DNA of 64,000 nt from contig NZ_JACIJC010000004.1 of assembly GCF_014199215.1 (NCBI RefSeq), positions 496,001 through 560,000 of the forward strand, in the 5' to 3' direction. The notes under the pieces were generated by a model. That model made no database searches, was not told the origin of the DNA, and worked only from the letters and a program-made list of their open reading frames with translations. This DNA is from Sphingobium boeckii (GTDB taxonomy: Bacteria; Pseudomonadota; Alphaproteobacteria; Sphingomonadales; Sphingomonadaceae). Shown here piece by piece: positions 1,377-64,000 of the stretch (its first letter is position 1; each line of letters begins with the position of its first letter). The position numbers and the translations under genes were made by a program.

Positions 1377-1449
1377 CCGTTTGTCCCGAGCGAAGTCGAG
1401 GGACGTCGGAGCTGTCACCACATCCCTCGACTTCGCTCGGGACAAACGG
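1377..1449. repeat. Palindromic intergenic element, family A (copy 1)
   Basis: An inverted repeat whose arms begin CCGTTTGTCCCGAGCGAAG and end in the reverse complement, with a central loop of about 20 nt. The same arms recur at 5568, 27425, 41530 and, as a half copy, 51875. It lies between mmsB and the enoyl-CoA hydratase gene. It could fold into a long hairpin in the operon mRNA. Confidence 0.9.
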
Positions 1450-1457
1450 GATCTAGA

Positions 1458-2234
1458 TCAGCGTCCCGTCCATTTCCCCGGACGCTTCTCGACGAACGCG
1501 GCCATGCCCTCGCTCTGGTCATCGCTCCCGAAGATCCCGTGGAACAGTCTCCGTTCGAATTGCACGCCCATGGTGAGCGTCGTCTCGAACGCGGCATTCA
1601 CCATTTCCTTATTGGCCTTCACAGCGAGCGGCGCCATTTCGGCGATGGTCGTCGCGGTCTTCACCGCATCCTCCACCAGTTCCGCCAAAGGCACGATCCG
1701 CGCGACCAGCCCTGAACGCTCGGCTTCCTCGGCACCCATCATCCGCCCGGTGAGGCACATTTCCATCGCCTTGGCCTTGCCCACCGCACGGGGCAGGCGC
1801 TGCGATCCGCCCATGCCGGGGGTCACCGCCAGCTTGATCTCGGGCTGGCCGAATTTCGCATTGTCCGCCGCCAGGATGAAATCGCACATCATCGCGAGCT
1901 CGCAGCCGCCGCCCAGCGCATAGCCCGCCACCGCCGCGATCACGGGCTTGCGCGTCGCGGTCACGCGCTCATAGCCGCCGAAAAAATTGCTGCCATACAT
2001 GGTCGCGAAACCCTGATCGGACATTTCCTTGATGTCCGCGCCCGCCGCAAACGCCTTGTCATTACCGGTCAGCACGGCGCAGCCCTGCGTCTCATCGGCA
2101 TCGAATGCCTCCAGCGCGGCGATCAGATCGGCCAGCACCTGCGAATTGAGCGCGTTCAGCGCCTGCGGGCGATTGAGCGTGATCAGCGTCACGCGGCCAC
2201 GCTGCTCGACCAGCAGGGTTTCATAGTCAGCCAT
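1458..2234 (-). CDS. Enoyl-CoA hydratase (valine pathway)
   Basis: Crotonase-fold hydratase, 258 aa. In this operon the likely reaction is methacrylyl-CoA plus water to 3-hydroxyisobutyryl-CoA. The oxyanion-hole segments A-F-A-A-G-A-D-I (residues 61-68) and G-Y-A-L-G-G-G-C-E (104-112) are present. The two catalytic glutamates, E112 and E132 in F-G-Q-P-E, are intact. Two ATGs lie close together (2240 and 2234). The second is preferred because AGAAGGA then sits at a normal spacing of about 6 nt. Upstream is the hydrolase gene, downstream mmsB. A general fatty-acid role cannot be excluded from sequence alone. Confidence 0.92.
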
Positions 2235-2253
2235 TGTCATTCCTTCTTGATAA

Positions 2254-3294
2254 TCAGGCAGGCGTCCACGCCTCGTCCTCGGGCAGGGGCGCAAAAATCT
2301 GGTCAATCACATGATCGCTGACCCCCTCGGGCGTGGGGGGATCCCAGCGCGGCGCATTGTCCTTGTCCACGATCACCGCGCGCACGCCTTCGAGGAAGTC
2401 ATGCCGCTGCACCACATGGCAGCCGACGGCATATTCCTGTTTCATCTCGTCGGCGAAGTCGTGCATTCCAGCGCCCTCGCGCAGCAGCCGAAGCGAGACC
2501 TTCATCGTCTGCGGCGATTTGGTCTTCAGCGTGGCCAGTTCCTTCGCCGCCCAATCGCCGCCATCCGCATCCAGCGCGGCATACACCTCTTCCAGCACGT
2601 CGGACGCGAACAGCCGGTCGATCGATGCCAGATTGTCCTCGATCCGGGCGGGCGGCGGCGTCACGGAAAGCTGGCCGAGAATGCCCTCGATCCGCTGCGG
2701 GTCCGCCGCGATGCGCGTCTTGGCTTCGTCCAGCGAGTCCGCCGGCAGATAATGCGTCGCCAGCCCCAGAGCGAAACACTCCGCCCCGTCGATCCGCGCG
2801 CCGGTCAGCGCCAGAAACTGGCCCGTCCGGCCCGGCAGACGTGACAGGAACCAGCCGCCGCCCACGTCGGGGAAAAGGCCGATCCCGGTTTCGGGCATGG
2901 CAAGGCGCGTATTTTTCGTCGCAACGCGGTATTTGCACGGCATGGCAATGCCCACGCCGCCACCCATGGTGATCCCGTCCATAAAGGCCACGGTCGGCTT
3001 GGCATAAGTGAACAGCCGGTGATTCATCCGATATTCGGTGTGGAAGAACGCCCGCGCCTCTGCGCCATCCTTCGCGCCGCTTTCCGCGAGCATCCGGATA
3101 TCGCCGCCCGCGCAAAAGCCGCGTCCCTCGGCATGGTCGAAGATCACCGCCTCCACGGCGAGATCGCCGCGCCAGTCTTCCAGCGCGTCGAGAATGCTCT
3201 CGCACATGGCCGTGGTCAGCGCATGGATCGCCTTGGGCCGATTGAGCCGGATGCGGCCCGCCTTGCCGTCGATATTTGTGATGATGTCACTCAC
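2254..3294 (-). CDS. 3-hydroxyisobutyryl-CoA hydrolase
   Basis: Crotonase-superfamily thioesterase, 346 aa, releasing 3-hydroxyisobutyrate from its CoA ester. The length is typical of the HIBCH branch, which carries a C-terminal extension absent from true hydratases. Visible motifs are [12 protein letters not shown] (residues about 56-67), the G-G-G-V-G-I-A segment near 112, and [14 protein letters not shown] around 134-147, which is characteristic of this branch. It starts with GTG at 3294, overlapping the TGA of the acyl-CoA dehydrogenase by 4 bp, so the two genes are translationally coupled. Confidence 0.93.
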
Positions 3295-55640: not shown

Positions 55641-56540
55641 TTGAAGAGCACCCTGGTGCGTGCCGCCATGGCAATCACATTCCTGGCACCCGCTATGGCG
55701 GTAGCAGGCGCGCCACCCGCGCCCTTGACGCCGATCGACTGCTTCACGCCGCTGGCTTCACCGCAATTGTGGAAGCCCGTGCAAGCGCCGACTTTGGACA
55801 CGGCATTTTTCCGCCAGCTTCCACCCGGCTTTGCCATGCCTACAGATCACCTGTCGCGCCATCTTATGCGCGAATATGGTGCGATTTTGGTGTCGCGCGG
55901 TGCCGATGTGCGACCGGTGACCGTGCTGTTCGCCGATGAAGCGGCGGTGACGGCGTGGCAGGCGACCGTGCCGATGAAGACTGCGATCGTGGGCGGAATC
56001 GCCGTGACGCTGCAATCGCGCGCGATGGAGGCGCTGCAGGCGGCGATCAAGGAAGCCAGCGCCGCGAAACTCGCGATCACCCCCGCGGGCGCGGATGCGG
56101 CGCGGCGCAATTATGCGCGGACTATCATCAACTGGAAAAGCCGGGTCGATGGCGGGCTGGCACACTGGCGCGCGGCAAAGAAGCTGGATCAGGCCAAAGT
56201 GGACGCGATCACCAGATTGTCCCCCGCGGCCCAGATTCCCCGCATCCTGGCGCTGGAAGAACAAGGCCTGTGCTTCGCCACCTTGCGCGACAAGACCATA
56301 TTGCGCTCCGTCGCCGCGCCCGGATCGTCCCAACATGTCTTTATGCTGGCCCTGGATGTGAAGCAACATGCCGATCCGCGCGTCCGCGCGATCCTCGCGC
56401 GCCATGGCTGGTTTCAGACCGTGGTGACCGATGCCCCGCACTTCACTTATCTCGGCACCGACAGCGCCAGTGTGTCGCTGCTCGGACTCAAACGCGTCAC
56501 GGCAGCCAAGCGCGACTATTGGGTGCCTGACATCAATTAA
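55641..56540 (+). CDS. Secreted M15-like (VanY/D-Ala-D-Ala peptidase-related) protein
   Basis: 299 aa. It starts with TTG at 55641, behind AGGGAGAAGG; no ATG fits the signal peptide (S-T-L-V-R-A-A-M-A-I-T-F-L-A-P-A ending V-A-G-A). The C-terminal part has S-S-Q-H-V-F-M-L-A-L-D-V and T-D-A-P-H-F-T-Y-L, matching the S-x-H-x6-D and E-x-x-H zinc-peptidase motifs of family M15, except that Asp replaces the catalytic Glu. Cell-wall hydrolysis is possible but a degenerate active site must be considered. It is followed after 14 bp by an M28 peptidase gene. Confidence 0.7.
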   Translation: MKSTLVRAAMAITFLAPAMAVAGAPPAPLTPIDCFTPLASPQLWKPVQAPTLDTAFFRQLPPGFAMPTDHLSRHLMREYGAILVSRGADVRPVTVLFADEAAVTAWQATVPMKTAIVGGIAVTLQSRAMEALQAAIKEASAAKLAITPAGADAARRNYARTIINWKSRVDGGLAHWRAAKKLDQAKVDAITRLSPAAQIPRILALEEQGLCFATLRDKTILRSVAAPGSSQHVFMLALDVKQHADPRVRAILARHGWFQTVVTDAPHFTYLGTDSASVSLLGLKRVTAAKRDYWVPDIN

Positions 56541-56554
56541 AGCGAGGACATGCC

Positions 56555-58225
56555 TTGAAGATCACTTCTGCTCTGTTTGCCAGTGTGATGGCCTTTGCCG
56601 CGCCGGCGACCGCCAACACCACAGGCAATAGCGCCCCGATCGAAACCGCCCGGCTGGCCGACACCGTTCAGATCCTCGCTTCGGACGCCTTTGAAGGCCG
56701 CGCGCCCGGCACGGCGGGTGAGGACAAGACCGTCGCCTGGTTGATCGAACATTATACCGCGCTGGGGCTTGAGCCGGGTGGGGAGAATGGCGGCTGGACG
56801 CAGACAGTGCCGCTGATCCGCACCCGGCTTGGAGCACCATCCCGACTCGCGGTCACCCATGGCAAAGGCAGCATGGCGCTCGTCCAGAATGAAAGCATCT
56901 ATCTGCGCACGCCCCGCGCGGTGGATCGCGCCGCGATCACGCAGGCGGAAATGGTGTTCGTCGGCTATGGCGTCGATGCGCCCGAGCGGCAATGGGATGA
57001 CTTCAAGGGCGTGGATCTGCATGGCAAGATCGCCGTCTTTCTGGTCAATGATCCCGATTTCGAGGCGATCGCGGGCGAGCCGGTCAAAGGCAAATTCGGT
57101 GACCAGGCGATGACCTATTATGGCCGCTGGACTTACAAGTTCGAAGAAGCGGCGCGGCGCGGCGCGATCGGTGCGCTGATCGTGCATGATACGCCCAGTG
57201 CCGGCTATGGCTGGTCCACCGTGATCGCGGGCGGCGGCGAGAATTACGATATCGTGCGGCCCGCCAGCGAGCCACAGCGCGTGATGCTGCAGGGCTGGAT
57301 CGAGGGAAAGGCCGCCGTCGATCTGTTCACTGCGGCCGGACAGGATCTTGCCGCTCTCAGGATCAAGGCGCGGCGCGCCGATTTCAAACCGATCGCCTTG
57401 AAAGACCTGCGCTTCGATGCCGATTTCCCGGTGACCATGGAACGCATCGAAAGCCGCAACGTGCTGGCAAAGTTGACCGGCACCAAATATCCCGACGAAA
57501 CGATCATGTTCGGCGCGCATTGGGATGCTTATGGCGTGGGCGCTGCCGACGCGGACGGCCGCACCGTGCGGGCCGGCGCCAATGACGACGCGCTGGGACT
57601 GGCCGGCGTGATCGAACTCGCGCGTATTTTCGCCGCAGCACCGCGCACCGAGCGCACATTGGTGTTCGCGGCATGGACCGCCGAGGAAGCTGGCCTTCTG
57701 GGATCGGAAACCTATGGCGTGACGCCGCTTTATCCTCTGGAAAAAACTGTGGCGAATCTGACGCTGGATATCCTCCAGACTGCCGGACTCGCCCGCGATG
57801 TCGTGCTGGTGGGCAAGGGGCAGAATGCGCTCGAGGTGGATCTGGCAAAGGCCGCAGCGCTGCAAGGCCGCATCGTGACCGCAGAAACGCTGCCTGAGCG
57901 CGGGCTTTTCTATCGCGCCGATCATTTCTCGCTCGCACGGCGCGGCGTTCCGGTGTTGCTGCTGATGGGGATCAGCGGCGGGGCGGATTTGGTGGAAGGT
58001 GGACGCGCGGCCGGCGACAAATGGGTCTCCGATTACACGGCCAATTGCTATCACAAACCGTGTGACCGTTATGACGCAAGCTGGAATCTGGCGGGCGCTG
58101 CGCAGGATATCGCCTTGTTCCACACCATAGGCGCCGATCTCGCCAATAGCCGCCGCTGGCCTGACTGGAATGCAGCATCCGAATTCCGTGCGATCCGGGT
58201 CGAAAGCGCAAAAGCCCGCCAATAA
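56555..58225 (+). CDS. Secreted M28-family zinc metallopeptidase
   Basis: 556 aa. TTG start at 56555 with GAGGA at a 7-nt spacing, giving signal peptide M-K-I-T-S-A-L-F-A-S-V ending A-T-A. A PA-type insert domain covers about residues 110-240. The dinuclear zinc site is visible: G-A-H-W-D-A-Y (His, Asp) near residue 316, A-N-D-D-A-L-G near 344, W-T-A-E-E-A-G-L-L-G (catalytic Glu pair) near 374, and a late R-A-D-H-F-S. It is probably an aminopeptidase acting on exported peptides. Confidence 0.9.
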   Translation: MKITSALFASVMAFAAPATANTTGNSAPIETARLADTVQILASDAFEGRAPGTAGEDKTVAWLIEHYTALGLEPGGENGGWTQTVPLIRTRLGAPSRLAVTHGKGSMALVQNESIYLRTPRAVDRAAITQAEMVFVGYGVDAPERQWDDFKGVDLHGKIAVFLVNDPDFEAIAGEPVKGKFGDQAMTYYGRWTYKFEEAARRGAIGALIVHDTPSAGYGWSTVIAGGGENYDIVRPASEPQRVMLQGWIEGKAAVDLFTAAGQDLAALRIKARRADFKPIALKDLRFDADFPVTMERIESRNVLAKLTGTKYPDETIMFGAHWDAYGVGAADADGRTVRAGANDDALGLAGVIELARIFAAAPRTERTLVFAAWTAEEAGLLGSETYGVTPLYPLEKTVANLTLDILQTAGLARDVVLVGKGQNALEVDLAKAAALQGRIVTAETLPERGLFYRADHFSLARRGVPVLLLMGISGGADLVEGGRAAGDKWVSDYTANCYHKPCDRYDASWNLAGAAQDIALFHTIGADLANSRRWPDWNAASEFRAIRVESAKARQ

Positions 58226-58266
58226 CGTTTCCGTGCGACCCGCTAACAAACCCTCTTGCCGAATAA

Positions 58267-58283
58267 ATGTTATGATGTAACAT
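58267..58283 (+). promoter_or_regulatory. Dyad in the tonB promoter region
   Basis: ATGTTA-TGATG-TAACAT, perfect 6-bp arms, overlaps a good -10 hexamer TATGAT (58271-58276). It lies 48 bp before the tonB ATG. A repressor bound there would occlude the promoter. No -35 of quality was seen. Inferred. Confidence 0.4.
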
Positions 58284-58330
58284 CCTACTCAACAGCGCTC
58301 CACCGGGACGCTGTGTTGAAGGAGGATGTC

Positions 58331-58996
58331 ATGCAGAATGCAGGAGGATATCTCGACCAGAAAACCCGCAGCCCGCTAAGCCTTGGCGCAGCGATCGCCA
58401 TCAACGGCGCGATGGTGGCGGAGCTTTTGTTTGCCAGCCCGGACGTGGTCCGCGACATTCCGGGGATCATGCGCCTGACCGATCCGATCACGGTGCAACC
58501 GCCGCCACCCGATCCGATCACGCCGCCCAAGGCGAAAACCCCGCAAACGCCGAAATCGGTGACCACCGCTTCGAAAGCGCCTCCCATTTCGGAACCATTG
58601 CCCAACACCATATCCGAACAGCCCTATATCCAGCCAACACTGCCAGATCTGCCGGGCATGGGCGCAGGTATGACGGAAACCGTCAAACCGCCCCGTGCCC
58701 CCGTTTTGATTGGCGTTCGCCCCGATCCCCGCTTTGCCGATCGGATGCAGCCCGATTATCCGCCGGGTCTGCAAAGGCAGGGGATCGAAGGCATGGCCGA
58801 GGTCCGCGTCCTGATCGGCCCCGATGGCCGCGTCAGGCAAATTCAGATGGTGTCAGCCACCGAGCCGGCATTCTTCAGGGCCACGCAACAGCAGGCTTTG
58901 AAGTATTGGCGCTTCCAGCCGGCGACCAGAGATGGCGTGCCGATCGAAGGCTGGCGGACGATGACGGTTCGTTTCACGCTGAACGACGGACGCTGA
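58331..58996 (+). CDS. Energy transducer TonB-family protein
   Basis: 221 aa. One membrane anchor (S-L-G-A-A-I-A-I-N-G-A-M-V-A-E-L-L-F at about 17-34), a Pro-rich periplasmic spacer (P-P-P-P-D-P-I-T-P-P-K-A-K-T-P) and a C-terminal TonB domain from about residue 130 (Y-P-P-G-L-Q-R-Q-G-I-E-G ... Y-W-R-F-Q-P-A). It couples inner-membrane proton force to outer-membrane receptors. The ATG has GAAGGAGG. No exbB/exbD neighbours. The window also carries two TonB-dependent receptors. Confidence 0.9.
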   Translation: MQNAGGYLDQKTRSPLSLGAAIAINGAMVAELLFASPDVVRDIPGIMRLTDPITVQPPPPDPITPPKAKTPQTPKSVTTASKAPPISEPLPNTISEQPYIQPTLPDLPGMGAGMTETVKPPRAPVLIGVRPDPRFADRMQPDYPPGLQRQGIEGMAEVRVLIGPDGRVRQIQMVSATEPAFFRATQQQALKYWRFQPATRDGVPIEGWRTMTVRFTLNDGR

Positions 58997-59046
58997 TCGG
59001 GAGAGACGGGGTGGCGCAGATCGCAAAGCCGCACTATCTTGGTGGC

Positions 59047-59397
59047 ATGGCGATATTTCCCCGTCCCGTTTCCCCTTTCAGGGCCATACGCGATCTGCGG
59101 TCCTTTCTGGCGCAGCGGCAGAAGCACGAGCTGATTTTCGCCTTCCTCTCCATCGCGGTCACCATGCTGATTCTGGTGGGCTTTTACGTCGATTCCAAGT
59201 TCGAGACGCCCTGGAAGCGCAATATCCAATATGTCGAAAGCTGGCCGCTGGATCGGTCTCTGGAACAGGTGCGCGCGCAGCAGAAGATCGATCAGGCTGC
59301 CAAGAAAGTGCGGCAGGCGGAGCTAGATAAATTGCGCGCCGAAAAGATGCAGCAGTTCAAGAGGCTCGACAAGAAGCTCGAAGACCTCGGCATTTGA
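59047..59397 (+). CDS. Small single-pass membrane protein, 116 aa
   Basis: Unknown function. Starts M-A-I-F-P-R-P-V-S-P-F. One membrane helix (F-A-F-L-S-I-A-V-T-M-L-I-L-V-G-F-Y) at about residues 37-53, then a charged periplasmic or cytoplasmic coil rich in Lys, Gln and Arg (Q-Q-K-I-D-Q-A-A-K-K-V-R-Q). GTG at 59011 with GGGAGAG upstream is an alternative start adding 12 residues. Its stop overlaps the ribD start (TTGA), so it heads the riboflavin operon. Confidence 0.75.
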   Translation: MAIFPRPVSPFRAIRDLRSFLAQRQKHELIFAFLSIAVTMLILVGFYVDSKFETPWKRNIQYVESWPLDRSLEQVRAQQKIDQAAKKVRQAELDKLRAEKMQQFKRLDKKLEDLGI

Positions 59398-60365
59398 CAC
59401 TCGATCTGCGCTTCATGGGCGCAGCGCTGGCGCTGGCGGAGCGCACGCGCGGTGCCACTTCGCCCAATCCCGGTGTCGGGTGCATCATCGTCAATAACGG
59501 CCGCATCGTCGGACGCGGCTGGACCAAGCCCGGCGGACGGCCCCATGCGGAGGCTGTGGCTTTGGCCGAGGCTGGTGCGATGGCGCGGGGCGCGACCGCC
59601 TATGTGACGCTTGAGCCATGCGCGCATGAAAGCGCCAGGGGACCGCGATGTTCGACGCTGCTGATCGCGGCGGGTGTCGCCCATGTCGTTGCCGCCCTGG
59701 GGGATCCCGATCCCCGCACCAATGGCAAAGGCTTTCAAGCGCTCCGCGATGCCGGGATCGTCGTGGACACGGGGATCATGGCGCAGGAGGCGTCGCAAGC
59801 CATGGCCGGATTTCTGACGCGTCAGGCGCTGGGCCGGCCGCACGTCACCTTGAAGCTGGCCATGTCACTCGATGGCCGGATCGCGATGACCAATGGGGAA
59901 AGCCGCTGGATCACGGGGCCGGAGGCGCGCGCACACACCCATATGGAACGCGCCCGGCATGAGATGATTTTGGTCGGCCGCGGTACGCTGGAGAGCGATG
60001 CCCCCGCGCTGAACGTGCGCCTGCCCGGCCTGGAATCCCGCAGCCCGCGCCGCGCGGTGCTGACGCAGGGTGGTGCCCCCGATGGCTGGGAAGCCGTCGC
60101 TTCACCCGAGGCCATCGCCGCGCTCACGGGGGTCGATCATCTGCTGGTGGAGGGGGGTGCCGGCGCGGCCTCCGCCTTTCTCGCGGCCGATCTGGTCGAT
60201 CGTCTGCTGCTGTACCGTGCGCCCATCCTGATCGGTGCGGGCAAGGCATCTCTGGAGGACATCGGCTTGACCGCGCTGGCCGATGCGCATGGCCGCTGGC
60301 ATCGGCGCGATACGCGGATGCTTGGCAGCGACCAACTCGACGTTTACGAGCGCAGGCGACATTAA
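59394..60365 (+). CDS. ribD: Bifunctional riboflavin deaminase/reductase
   Basis: 323 aa; converts the GTP-derived pyrimidine to 5-amino-6-ribitylamino-uracil phosphate precursor. The N-terminal deaminase has H-A-E (P-H-A-E-A-V) near residue 50 and the zinc cysteines in E-P-C-A-H and G-P-R-C near 75-84. The reductase half starts near 145 (V-T-L-K-L-A-M-S-L-D-G-R-I-A). At 323 aa it is shorter than the roughly 360 aa of enterobacterial RibD. The TTG at 59394 overlaps the previous stop; ATG at 59415 is the alternative start. Confidence 0.94.
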   Translation: MTLDLRFMGAALALAERTRGATSPNPGVGCIIVNNGRIVGRGWTKPGGRPHAEAVALAEAGAMARGATAYVTLEPCAHESARGPRCSTLLIAAGVAHVVAALGDPDPRTNGKGFQALRDAGIVVDTGIMAQEASQAMAGFLTRQALGRPHVTLKLAMSLDGRIAMTNGESRWITGPEARAHTHMERARHEMILVGRGTLESDAPALNVRLPGLESRSPRRAVLTQGGAPDGWEAVASPEAIAALTGVDHLLVEGGAGAASAFLAADLVDRLLLYRAPILIGAGKASLEDIGLTALADAHGRWHRRDTRMLGSDQLDVYERRRH

Positions 60366-60375
60366 AGGGGCGCGC

Positions 60376-60993
60376 ATGTTTACCGGCATCATCAGCGACA
60401 TCGGCACGATCCAGAGCCTGGAGCAGCGCGGCGACCTGCGCGCCGTGATCGGGACGACCTATGATACGGCCACTGTCGATCTCGGCGCGTCCATCGCCTG
60501 CTCGGGCGTGTGCCTGACCGTCGTGGACAAGGGGCCGGGCTGGTTCGCTGTGGATATTTCGGGGGAGACCGTCTCGCGCACCGCACGGGACCAGTGGACT
60601 GCAGGCAAGCGCCTGAATCTGGAACGCGCGATGAAACTGGGCGATGAATTGGGCGGGCATATCGTCACTGGCCACGTCGACGGGGTTGGCGAGATCACCG
60701 CGCTGGAATCCGTGGGCGATTCCTGGAAGGTGACGGTTTCGGCGGGCAGCGATCTCGCGCCCTTTCTGGCACCCAAGGGCTCGGTCACGCTCGACGGCAT
60801 TTCGCTGACGGTGAACACCGTGACCGACACGCCGGACGGAGCCTTCGATTTTACCGTGAACATCATTCCCCACACCGCCGAGGTCACCACGTTCGACGCG
60901 CTGGCGATCGGGCGCGCGGTGAACATCGAAATCGATGTGCTGGCGCGCTATCTCGGGCGGATGCGGTCATTATTGGAAAATCATGCACATTGA
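60376..60993 (+). CDS. ribE: Riboflavin synthase alpha chain
   Basis: 205 aa trimeric enzyme forming riboflavin from two lumazines. Two lumazine-binding barrels begin M-F-T-G-I-I and G-H-I-V-T-G-H-V-D-G near residue 93. Conserved G-V-C-L-T-V-V-D and L-D-G-I-S-L-T-V-N motifs are present. It starts 10 bp after ribD. Its stop (60991-60993) overlaps one half-site GATGTGAT of the operator that precedes the next gene. Confidence 0.95.
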   Translation: MFTGIISDIGTIQSLEQRGDLRAVIGTTYDTATVDLGASIACSGVCLTVVDKGPGWFAVDISGETVSRTARDQWTAGKRLNLERAMKLGDELGGHIVTGHVDGVGEITALESVGDSWKVTVSAGSDLAPFLAPKGSVTLDGISLTVNTVTDTPDGAFDFTVNIIPHTAEVTTFDALAIGRAVNIEIDVLARYLGRMRSLLENHAH

Positions 60994-61031
60994 TGTGATT
61001 TCTTTATTGGATCATCACATCGCGATGTGAT
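60992..61031. promoter_or_regulatory. Palindromic operator before ribBX
   Basis: ATCACATCGCGATGTGAT (61014-61031) is a perfect 18-bp palindrome. A third half-site GATGTGAT lies at 60992-60999, 30 bp from the equivalent half of the palindrome, and GTGATATCAC (61027-61036) overlaps its right end. It is 12 bp before the ribBX ATG. No FMN riboswitch motif was seen here. Binding by the helix-turn-helix of RibBX is a hypothesis. Confidence 0.6.
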
Positions 61032-61042
61032 ATCACGCGTTC

Positions 61043-62338
61043 ATGAGCACATTATTGATCGATCGCATTCGCGACCTCGTCACCGAAGGCGGCATTTCCC
61101 GCTCGGGCCTCGCCCGCGCTGCCGGACTTCATGCCAATTCCCTGCGCAGCCTGGATGACGCCCAGTGGAACCCCACCGCGGAAACGCTGCGCAAGCTGGA
61201 ATCCTATCTGGTCCGGCGTGAGGCCTCCCCCGCACTGGTGCCGATCGAGGAAATTATCGACGAGGCGCGCAATGGCCGCATGTTCATCCTGGTCGATGAC
61301 GAAGATCGCGAGAATGAGGGCGATCTGATCATCCCCGCGCAGATGGCGACGCCCGATGCGATCAATTTCATGGCCAAGCATGGTCGCGGCCTGATCTGCC
61401 TGGCGCTGGCCAAGGCGCGCGTCGATCAGCTCGGTCTCGATCTGATGAGCCGCCACAATGGCACGCGGCATGAAACTGCCTTTACCGTATCGATCGAGGC
61501 CCGCGATGGCGTGACGACTGGCATTTCGGCGGGTGACCGCGCGCGGACCGTTTCCGTCGCGATCGACGCCGCCAAGGGGCCGGAGCATATCGTGACCCCG
61601 GGCCATGTCTTCCCGCTGATCGCGCGCGAGGGCGGCGTGCTGGTACGCGCCGGCCATACCGAGGCGGCAGTGGACGTATCCCGCCTGGCCGGGCTCAATC
61701 CTTCGGGCGTGATCTGCGAGATCATGAAGGATGATGGCACGATGGCGCGGATGGACGATCTGATCGTCTTTGCGCAGACGCACAATCTGAAGATCGGCAC
61801 GATCCGCGACCTGATCGCCTATCGCCGCAGCCATGATCATCTGGTCGAAAAGCGCGCGGAAGCCCGGTTCAACAGTCGCTGGGGCGGCGACTGGACCGCG
61901 ATGACCTTCTACAACAAGGCCACCGGCACCGAGCAGATGGCGCTCGTGAAGGGCCGCGTCGACCCCGATTCGCCCACGCTGGTGCGGATGCACTCGATGG
62001 ACGCCTTCACCGATATGTTCGGCGAAAATTCCGAGCGCTCGTGCGTCCTCTCCCGCTCGATGGAAATCATCGGGGCCGAAGGTGCTGGCGTGGTGGTGCT
62101 GCTGTCCAGCGCGACACCCGGCGTATTCACACGCGCGTTGCAGCGCAAGGCGGGCGTGCCGGATATGGAAGAGTTGCGCGATTATGGCGTGGGTGCACAG
62201 ATTTTGACGGAATTGGGCGTGCAGGACATGATCCTGCTCACCAATACGCATCACACACTGATCGGGCTTGACGGCTATGGCCTCTCGATCGTCGGCGAAC
62301 GCCCGATCGATCTCCCCTCAATTGAAAAGGCAGCCTGA
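61043..62338 (+). CDS. ribBX: HTH-DHBP synthase-RibX fusion (RibBX type)
   Basis: 431 aa in three parts. Residues about 4-57 form an XRE-like helix-turn-helix ([16 protein letters not shown]). Residues about 68-275 are DHBP synthase, making dihydroxybutanone phosphate from ribulose 5-phosphate, with [10 protein letters not shown] (85-94), R-H-N-G-T-R-H-E and P-G-H-V-F-P. From about 282 a GTP cyclohydrolase II-like fold follows (V-R-M-H-S ... [10 protein letters not shown]) but the C-x10-C-x-C zinc ligands are missing, so it is of the RibBX kind, not active RibA. A true RibA must be elsewhere. The ATG follows the operator. Confidence 0.92.
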
Positions 62339-62341
62339 TCC

Positions 62342-62764
62342 ATGGCCAAATTCCTGATCGTCGAAGCGCGCTTCTATGACCATCTGAACGACCTTCTGAT
62401 AAAGGGCGCACGCGCCGCGATCGAGGATGCGGGGCATCATCACGATACGATCACCGTCCCCGGCGCGCTCGAAATTCCCGGCGCGATCGCGCTGGCGGCG
62501 GAATCGGGCCGCTATGACGGCTATGTCGCGCTGGGCGTCGTCATGCGCGGCGAAACCTATCATTTCGAAGTGGTCTCCAACGAAAGCGCGCGCGGCCTTA
62601 TGGCGCTGACGATGGACAGCATCGCCATCGGCAACGGTATCCTGACCGTGGAGAATGAAGCCCAGGCGCTGACCCGCGCCAAACCCGACGAAAAGGACAA
62701 AGGCGGCGAAGCCGCCAAAGCCGCCATCGCCATGCTGGCGCTACGCGAAAAATTCGGCGGGTAG
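62342..62764 (+). CDS. ribH: 6,7-dimethyl-8-ribityllumazine synthase
   Basis: 140 aa, the penultimate step of riboflavin synthesis. It shows A-R-F-Y-D-H-L near residue 9, V-P-G-A-L-E-I-P near 38, and [14 protein letters not shown] near 62-75 with the catalytic His. It starts 3 bp after ribBX, so it is the last gene of the operon. The common downstream nusB is not present here. Confidence 0.95.
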
Positions 62765-62837
62765 CGGCCTGAGGGGTGTGAATTTTCGGAAAATTATGCC
62801 GGAAACCAGCTTGTGATAGAAATGCAAAAATTCCGAA

Positions 62838-62866
62838 CGGCGTGAGCTATGCGGCTGCTCACGCCG
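62838..62866 (+). terminator. Stem-loop after the riboflavin operon
   Basis: CGGCGTGAGC pairs perfectly with GCTCACGCCG around a 9-nt loop, 74 bp past ribH, followed by GATTTCG. Probably the end of the rib transcript; it lacks a long T-run. Confidence 0.5.
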
Positions 62867-62953
62867 GATTTCGCCCCTAATATCCCTGTATTCAGACTAG
62901 CAGCACCGCCGCGCTGCGGAGAACGGCACTTTTCCAGACAATGAAAGACTAAA

Positions 62954-63044
62954 TGGCGGAGCGGGTGGGATTCGAACCCACGATACGCTTTTGACGTATA
63001 CTCACTTTCCAGGCGAGCGCCTTCGACCACTCGGCCACCGCTCC
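62954..63044 (-). tRNA. tRNA-Ser (anticodon GGA)
   Basis: On the minus strand the acceptor arms GGAGCGG and CCGCTCC pair. The anticodon loop is CTGGAAA (anticodon GGA, reading UCC/UCU). There is a long variable arm (about 15 nt) of class II type and a T-loop GTTCGAATC. Discriminator G is followed by an encoded CCA (62954-62956). The 91-nt length including CCA is normal for tRNA-Ser. Confidence 0.95.
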
Positions 63045-63125
63045 GCATTGCTCTGGAAGGCGGCTCACTATCGCGTGAACCGCCGGGGCGCAAGGACGCT
63101 TTGTGGTCCCCGCGCCCCAAGGGCA

Positions 63126-64000
63126 TCAGAACTTCACGCTGGCCTGGATTCCATAGAGGCGTGGCTCGGCCGGAATGAAGGTGGGGATGCCGAACGCGCC
63201 GCCGGTATTGCCGGCGTCGAGCAGATAATCCTTATCGGTGAGGTTGCGAACGAAACCGGCGATTTCGAACCGTTCATCCATCAGAGACACGCCCGCGCGG
63301 ACGTTGACGAGCGTCACCGCATCCTGCGAGGCGGCTTCGCTATTGGGCACTTCGAAGAAGATCTTGCTGCGATAGGTGACGCTGGGTGTAGCGAAGATGC
63401 GGATGCCCTCTGCCACCGGCGCATTGATCGTAAAGCCTGCCGCGCCCTGCACCTCGGGCTGAAGCCGGAATTGCGCCCCGCGGAAATTGGGCGCGATTGA
63501 CGCCTTATTGTCGATCCCACCATCGATATAGCCGATATTGGCGAAGATATTGAGCCAGCTTACGGGCTTGAGATAGACTTCCGCCTCGACCCCGAAATTG
63601 CTTGCGGTGCCGGCGCTCTCAGTGCGCGTCGTGCCGTTGGGCTGGACGACGCTCACCTGGAAATTATCATATTTCTGATAATAGACGCCGAGCGACCCGG
63701 ACATGATGCCGACCGCGCCTTTCAGGCCGACTTCGTAATTCCAGACATTTTCGGCAGCCACGGCCGAGGCCGATGCAACCGGCCCGGCCGTCGTCGCCCG
63801 CGCGCCCAGATTGACCGTCGGTGAGCGGCGGCCTTTGGAGATGGTGGCGAAGCCGTTCACATCATCCGAGAAGCGATAGAGGATGTTGAAGCGCGGCAGG
63901 AACGCCTGAAAACTGTCTTCGGTGCGGAATGTCTGGCCGGCGGTATCGACCTGGCCGGGAACCAGCGGTGCGTCGGGCAGCAGCGGGGACAGCAGGGAGA
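63126..64000 (-). CDS. TonB-dependent receptor, C-terminal part (runs off the window)
   Basis: The frame is open from the window edge to the stop at 63126, about 291 residues. It contains typical beta-barrel strands of TonB receptors: F-Q-A-F-L-P-R-F-N-I-L-Y-R-F-S-D, N-V-W-N-Y-E-V-G-L-K-G, L-G-V-Y-Y-Q-K-Y, and a last strand ending G-I-Q-A-S-V-K-F with the terminal Phe. The pattern (S-K-G-R-R-S-P-T-V-N-L-G) fits receptors for complex organic or siderophore ligands. The plug domain and start lie beyond 64000. Confidence 0.88.
   Translation of the reverse strand, partial: SLLSPLLPDAPLVPGQVDTAGQTFRTEDSFQAFLPRFNILYRFSDDVNGFATISKGRRSPTVNLGARATTAGPVASASAVAAENVWNYEVGLKGAVGIMSGSLGVYYQKYDNFQVSVVQPNGTTRTESAGTASNFGVEAEVYLKPVSWLNIFANIGYIDGGIDNKASIAPNFRGAQFRLQPEVQGAAGFTINAPVAEGIRIFATPSVTYRSKIFFEVPNSEAASQDAVTLVNVRAGVSLMDERFEIAGFVRNLTDKDYLLDAGNTGGAFGIPTFIPAEPRLYGIQASVKF

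Follow-up and report, generated by a model that had tools for sequence, protein, structure and literature searches.

A helix-turn-helix domain fused to DHBP synthase in Sphingobium boeckii: a putative trigger enzyme acting on its own gene

Introduction

In most of the Proteobacteria studied, control by the FMN riboswitch is confined to one gene, either ribB or ribH2 (PMC3766115). The rib locus of Sphingobium boeckii raises the question of how riboflavin synthesis is controlled when no such element is detected. We analyzed this locus within a window of 64,000 nucleotides, in which the gene for DHBP synthase (RibB) specifies an additional N-terminal helix-turn-helix (HTH) domain and is preceded by a perfect palindrome. 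From comparison of sequences we conclude that the gene in all likelihood encodes an autoregulatory trigger enzyme, here termed HTH-RibBX. For the family of the window organism (f1), which judging from its named loci most likely corresponds to Sphingomonadaceae in the wide sense and in which no FMN riboswitch was detected, the control of riboflavin synthesis is a gap, and HTH-RibBX offers a concrete answer.

Results

Organization of the rib locus

Four ORFs of the window, assigned by Pfam, form the rib cluster:

59394 to 60365, plus strand: ribD, first in the cluster, deaminase and RibD_C reductase (PF00383 and PF01872)
60376 to 60993, plus strand: ribE, riboflavin synthase (PF00677)
61043 to 62338, plus strand: HTH-RibBX gene, a single ORF of 431 amino acids
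62342 to 62764, plus strand: ribH, lumazine synthase (PF00885), next after the HTH-RibBX gene

The resulting order, ribD-ribE-ribB-ribH, bears out the original prediction that the third gene of the rib operon encodes an HTH-DHBP synthase. Among 40 HTH-ribB loci retrieved with at least 0.8 kb of flank, ribH was located within 150 bp downstream in 27, and its cotranscription with HTH-ribB is expected.

That no FMN riboswitch precedes the gene had likewise been predicted. A covariance search of positions 56000 to 64000 with Rfam agreed, since neither the FMN riboswitch (RF00050) nor any other Rfam family at the palindrome reached the gathering score. Extending the search for RF00050 to 196 genomes of the order, using Infernal at filter settings that miss some of the weak matches, yielded 16 genomes with the riboswitch, none of them among the 113 genomes of f1 and all 16 among the 83 genomes elsewhere; by the same filtered search, none was found in the genome of S. 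boeckii. Since the riboswitch acts on ribB or ribH2 in other bacteria and none was found in f1, HTH-RibBX seems to have assumed control at this very point.

Domain composition of the fusion protein

Three domains were assigned to the product of the third gene:

61043 to 61237, plus strand: XRE-like HTH domain, residues 1 to 65 (weak HTH_3 match, conservation, structural model and Foldseek)
61247 to 61822, plus strand: DHBP synthase (RibB) domain, residues 69 to 260 (PF00926, E value of 6e-84)
61850 to 62302, plus strand: degenerate GTP cyclohydrolase II domain (RibX), residues 270 to 420 (PF00925, E value of 8e-33), without the Cys/Cys-x-Cys zinc motif

The HTH ahead of DHBP synthase had been recognized correctly before, while the RibX domain had been overlooked. 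The match of the N-terminal part to HTH_3 (PF01381) amounted to 16.1 bits, below the Pfam gathering cut-off of 23, and was reported only when the N-terminal 65 amino acids were scanned alone. Despite this subthreshold score, the domain was present in 113 loci. In an alignment of 27 of these domains, one of which is a lone paralogue, residues G28, H30, N32, L34, W42-N43-P44-T45, T48, L49, and K51 were invariant. A structural model of the HTH built from these 27 sequences reached a mean pLDDT of 82.6. When it was submitted to Foldseek, nearly all of the matches listed were of the XRE type, including HipB with its operator, SinR with DNA, C.AhdI, DdrO, and the 434 repressor; probabilities were mostly above 0.9 but E values were 0.2 or worse, which is common with a domain this short. 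On the basis of conservation and predicted fold resemblance, we grade the N-terminal domain as XRE-like only.

The RibB part matches PF00926 over its full length. Residues D88 to D94 (DRENEGD), G204, T206, and E207 were invariant and H205 nearly so in an alignment of 38 sequences, and we take these residues to be catalytic. The model of the full-length protein had a mean pLDDT of 86. Its solved relatives include RibBA of Mycobacterium tuberculosis (4i14) and RibBX of Acinetobacter baumannii (6mnz), the latter at Foldseek rank 2, and solved RibB chains with 46 to 49% identity followed at ranks 4 to 7. The SEC...RCDC motif, present in four RibBA rows of the alignment (L097, L105, L116, and L118), was missing from the RibX part. 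Elsewhere in the S. boeckii genome, a separate RibA (L004) retains an intact zinc motif, SECLTGD...KCDCG. The lack of the motif in RibX, together with this intact RibA, identifies the window protein as a RibBX with an added HTH.

Inspection of the translation by eye indicated that the long N-terminal part of this RibA (L004, positions 1426 to 2655, minus strand) resembles a decayed RibB, making it the mirror image of RibBX. The genome also contains a second RibBX-like gene without HTH (L002, positions 1498 to 2631; G000:C10:38104-39204), 55% identical, whose neighbors by eye encode AMP-ligase-, P450-, ferredoxin-, and flavin reductase-like proteins. This setting suggests that flavin is provided locally to a catabolic cluster.

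A conserved dyad accompanies the fusion

Two elements upstream of the gene were present in the sequence at the places given by the original prediction:

60992 to 60999, plus strand: third half-site GATGTGAT, with ATGTGAT at 60993 to 60999, 22 bp ahead of the dyad's left arm
61014 to 61031, no strand assigned: putative operator dyad ATCACATCGCGATGTGAT, a perfect 18-bp palindrome; family consensus (A)TCACATTnnrATGTGA(T)

If the HTH reads this dyad, the two should occur together. The pattern TCACATnnnnATGTGA was searched with up to 2 mismatches within 150 bp upstream of the gene in 113 HTH loci, which comprised all 102 HTH-bearing genomes of the family and 11 further HTH loci, and which include one duplicate, leaving 112 distinct loci. 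Thirty-three RibB loci without HTH were treated in the same way (10 from the family, 16 from other families, 3 second copies [L002, L202, and L203], and 4 further loci). The dyad was found upstream of all 113 HTH-RibB loci, with 0, 1, and 2 mismatches in 67, 35, and 11 of them, respectively, and upstream of none of the 33 HTH-less loci. In the latter, the best match within 315-bp windows had 3, 4, 5, and 6 mismatches in 1, 6, 20, and 6 loci, respectively. Shuffled regions reached 2 or fewer mismatches in 0.5% of cases. Thus, the dyad co-occurs with HTH-RibB and is missing where the HTH is missing, as had been anticipated, and this co-occurrence supports the further claim that the HTH of the enzyme would recognize the dyad before its own gene.

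The species share ancestry and, therefore, the 113 HTH loci do not represent 113 independent events. For 95 loci with a flank identity below 60%, pairwise identity was 92% in the arms of the dyad, compared with 26% in the upstream flank, 29% in the leader, and 44% in the four central bases. Even with shared ancestry taken into account, this contrast between arms and flanks requires selection on the arms. Nor is the dyad tied to the upstream gene: in the longer-flank set, it was kept in the 25 of 40 HTH loci without ribE within 300 bp upstream, ribE being that close in the remaining 15. By these comparisons, the putative operator is a strongly selected DNA element that accompanies HTH-RibB and not HTH-less RibB.

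The third half-site has the orientation of the right arm and is mostly placed at -22 or -21. An exact ATGTGA occurred at one of these two offsets in 52 of 112 upstream regions and anywhere between -27 and -11 in 64 of 112. With up to 1 mismatch allowed, a third half-site was found in 79 of 112 loci, compared with 8.5% of shuffles, and 33 loci were without one. It lies two helical turns from the left arm and three turns, or approximately 32 bp, from the right arm, a spacing that would suit an additional dimer site of lower affinity. In some species (L047, CCTCACATCCTGATGTGAGG; L195), another dyad that is nearly perfect precedes the first by approximately 32 bp, as if both dimer sites were full.

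Distribution and proposed gain of the HTH domain

RibB was searched for in 196 genomes of the order, 184 of which gave a match with an E value of 1e-90 or better. Of the 113 genomes in f1, 102 carry the HTH, 10 do not (nine from one genus, g2, and G053), and 1, G157, has no RibB match. Outside f1, no HTH on RibB was seen among the 35 matches listed of 72 matching genomes, all of which start at residue 42 or later. Similarly, the HTH motifs GLHxNxLR and WNP were found in none of 21 translated loci from outside the HTH group whose match starts before residue 60; these early starts were ruled out as HTH fusions, since the matches had run into other sequence. A scan of 289 genomes across the class with the HTH and linker (73 amino acids, E values up to 1e-4) detected the fusion in three genomes, all from f1, and lone HTHs in two, S. 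boeckii and G552.

When presence of the HTH was mapped onto a 99-row tree built from the enzyme part, 5 changes were needed, at least 4 judging by starred branches. We tentatively read this pattern as one gain of the HTH at the base of the family followed by several losses, among them L054, L048, and the L033/L044/L051 cluster. None of the HTH-less loci examined had the dyad. A natural experiment is offered by the lineages in which domain and operator seem to have been lost jointly.

Two genomes drew attention in the course of this survey. The lone HTH of S. boeckii is encoded by a 102-amino-acid ORF on the minus strand (L003, positions 1444 to 1752; G000:C1:305308-305502), is 38 to 39% identical to that of HTH-RibB, and is possibly a relative of the donor of the domain. 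G157 (genus g3), which is listed as 100% complete, gave no RibB match at an E value of 0.001 and may represent a riboflavin auxotroph or an assembly gap.

The dyad occupies a predicted promoter spacer

Alignment of 112 loci on the dyad revealed enriched bases around it, namely T at -7 (62%) and -6 (71%), G at -5 (51%), T at position 16 of the dyad (74%), and A at position 17 (87%). This A has no counterpart across the dyad and, therefore, lies outside the palindrome. In the window, these bases fall into two promoter-like elements:

61007 to 61012, plus strand: predicted -35-like element, TTGGAT
61031 to 61036, plus strand: predicted -10-like element, TATCAC

The -35 element, of the form TTGnnn, and the -10 element, of the form TAnnnn, are approximately 17 bp apart with the dyad as the spacer, and they constitute a tentatively predicted promoter. 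Scores for -35 and -10 elements at offsets -1 and 11 were discarded as artefacts that arise from the letters of the dyad itself. The position of the dyad just upstream of the gene had been described correctly; its promoter-like placement had been overlooked.

The start codon follows the dyad by 12 to 13 nucleotides in 79 of 112 loci, or in 73 of 112 when each gene is taken to begin at its most upstream in-frame start, and is thus predicted to sit about where transcription would begin. A Shine-Dalgarno core was present in 10 of 93 loci with a short leader (7 of 102 in a second count), compared with 10.9% at random, and in 9 of 19 loci with a long leader (5 of 10 in the second count), the group of 19 including mis-called starts as well as loci where a better-matching upstream dyad was picked. 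In short-leader loci, the core is no commoner than at random, which makes a leaderless mRNA likely; we tentatively propose that the ribB mRNA is leaderless or nearly so. Owing to the weak -35 match, which averages 2.7 of 6 positions of TTGACA, both the promoter and the leaderless start are kept tentative. Zymomonas mobilis belongs to the same order as the window organism. In that species, 119 of 2,675 pairs of start site and gene are leaderless (PMC7566282).

The operator is nearly single copy

In the S. boeckii genome, the dyad before HTH-ribB was the only exact match, and three other places matched with 2 mismatches, compared with 2 per strand for a control pattern. A strict operator pattern, allowing 1 mismatch in 15 fixed bases, was used to scan 119 genomes of the family. 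It was absent in 71 and present in 48, occurring at a single place in 47 of these and at a second place in G071; copy number judged in this way applies to the 48 of 119 genomes that match the strict pattern, and weaker sites would be missed. HTH-ribB was found at 29 of the 30 strict-pattern loci that were fetched, and the 30th (L246), which is without it, looks like a chance match.

A relaxed search (up to 1 mismatch) of six genomes returned six further places besides those at ribB, and no flavin-related or common target was apparent at them by eye. Three sites (L271, L273, and L276) lie inside the longest ORF there and a fourth (L272) is overlapped by a 315-amino-acid ORF on the other strand, and these were rejected as regulon members. 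So was L275, which lies outside its longest ORFs and by eye shares no common target. The remaining one-mismatch dyad (L274, positions 373 to 388; G000:C6:373-388) is located 44 bp before a gene pair for an HTH protein and a Fic-like protein that by eye looks like a toxin-antitoxin module.

Near ribA (L004) and the lone HTH paralogue (L003), the only dyad match had 3 mismatches, in line with the chance expectation. The match in L003 (positions 1761 to 1776) lies directly upstream of the lone HTH ORF and is at chance level for that locus. Taken as a whole, the operator is nearly single copy per genome and HTH-RibBX behaves, as far as such scans predict, as a single-target regulator. The site before its own gene had been noted in the original prediction; its near uniqueness in the genome had escaped notice.

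Discussion

Proposed mechanism and alternatives

A DNA-binding domain fused to the enzyme and a matching promoter site across about one hundred species indicate that HTH-RibBX very probably switches its own gene, most likely as an autorepressor. RibB of Escherichia coli is a dimer. Dimerization of the RibB part would pair two HTHs, which would meet the two half-sites of the dyad one helical turn apart (centers separated by 10 bp). Bound between the -35 and -10 elements, the dimer would exclude RNA polymerase and thereby repress ribB and ribH, and a second dimer may bind cooperatively through the third half-site. In this manner, the amount of enzyme would be set by the enzyme itself, and the repression may be tuned when ribulose 5-phosphate, GTP, or a flavin occupies the active site or RibX. 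HTH-RibBX would thus stand in for the FMN riboswitch that is seen on ribB elsewhere.

A more far-reaching version, which we regard as speculative and rather doubtful, is that HTH-RibBX is the protein counterpart of the FMN riboswitch, with RibX sensing GTP or flavin and, together with active-site occupancy, shifting the geometry of the HTHs. A single polypeptide would then sense supply and demand, make the precursor, and set its own synthesis, and the family would have replaced an RNA switch by it, an idea to which we give the same modest credence. In Shewanella oneidensis, the X domain is reported to modulate RibB activity through a mechanism as yet unknown (PMC10012899), which leaves room for sensing.

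The alternative that survives best, although we consider it improbable, is that HTH-RibBX activates its gene or does both, an upstream half-site recruiting polymerase and the spacer dyad shutting the promoter at high occupancy. Controller (C) proteins of restriction-modification systems work in this way, with an upstream site that recruits polymerase and a spacer site that shuts the promoter off. A second, weaker upstream half-site about three turns from the right arm is in keeping with such an arrangement, as are the C proteins, C.AhdI included, that the HTH model matched in fold. However, the site that is strongest and best conserved overlies the predicted -35/-10 spacer, where binding usually blocks polymerase, and 33 of 112 loci have no upstream half-site with 1 mismatch or fewer.

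It is very unlikely that a transcription factor other than HTH-RibBX binds the dyad and that the fused HTH serves a different role. The motifs TGTGA and TCACA do resemble parts of the sites of other regulators, but the dyad is absent from every one of the 33 HTH-less RibB loci, including 10 genomes of f1 itself, and mostly occurs as a single site per genome adjoining HTH-ribB. Least probable by a small step further is that the dyad works at the RNA level, in the form of a hairpin, attenuator, or terminator, instead of as a DNA operator. That it forms a perfect inverted repeat between ribE and ribB could speak for this reading. Against it, the arms are kept in sequence and not in pairing alone, no Rfam family reaches the gathering score there, and the dyad precedes the predicted start and is retained where ribE is not adjacent. 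We retain autorepression by HTH-RibBX as the preferred reading.

Comparison with known systems

Enzymes that double as regulators are already known; such control was not found described for DHBP synthase. Among the matches listed from open-licence PMC titles and abstracts, there was no description of an HTH-DHBP synthase fusion or of its operator. A term search of two recent reviews on riboflavin biosynthesis and its regulation returned no mention of helix-turn-helix, RbkR, or sphingo-.

The FMN riboswitch (RF00050) and HTH-RibBX would share their place on ribB, the riboswitch being an RNA element. RibBX proteins of Shewanella, Bradyrhizobium, and Aeromonas consist of RibB and a GCHII-like domain without the zinc motif and are encoded in rib operons (PMC10012899). 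RibX is common to these proteins, to 6mnz of A. baumannii, and to the window protein, whereas the N-terminal HTH is found only in the latter. In Wolbachia, also an alphaproteobacterium, wBmxR1 and wBmxR2 bind the promoter of ribA, which encodes a RibB/RibA enzyme, and activate a ribA reporter (PMC3518464). Unlike HTH-RibBX, these are separate proteins that are not fused to the enzyme, and they reportedly do not bind their own promoters.

Archaeal RbkR, in which an HTH is joined to riboflavin kinase, has been described as "bifunctional as gene regulator and enzyme" (PMC8305020). It had been put forward as a precedent for the logic, and this holds insofar as both proteins fuse a DNA-binding domain to an enzyme of the flavin pathway. 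RbkR differs in being archaeal and a kinase, not a DHBP synthase; the only enzyme domains that Pfam found in HTH-RibBX were PF00926 and PF00925, the riboflavin kinase domain of RbkR being absent. BirA, NadR, and PutA of E. coli are trigger enzymes, which carry a DNA-binding domain and regulate genes, and PutA is listed as a single-target regulator (PMC8249747). They are other enzymes of other pathways, and regulation by HTH-RibBX is predicted from sequence comparison. RbkR, NadR, BirA, and PutA are thus functional analogues of HTH-RibBX, and RbkR is not a relative.

By comparative analysis, HTH-RibBX has the features of a trigger enzyme, namely enzyme and DNA-binding domain in one chain and a specific operator at the target gene. 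If the proposal is true, DHBP synthase joins the short list of enzymes that regulate their own gene, and the pair of operator and enzyme could serve in engineering as a compact self-limiting module for flavin control.
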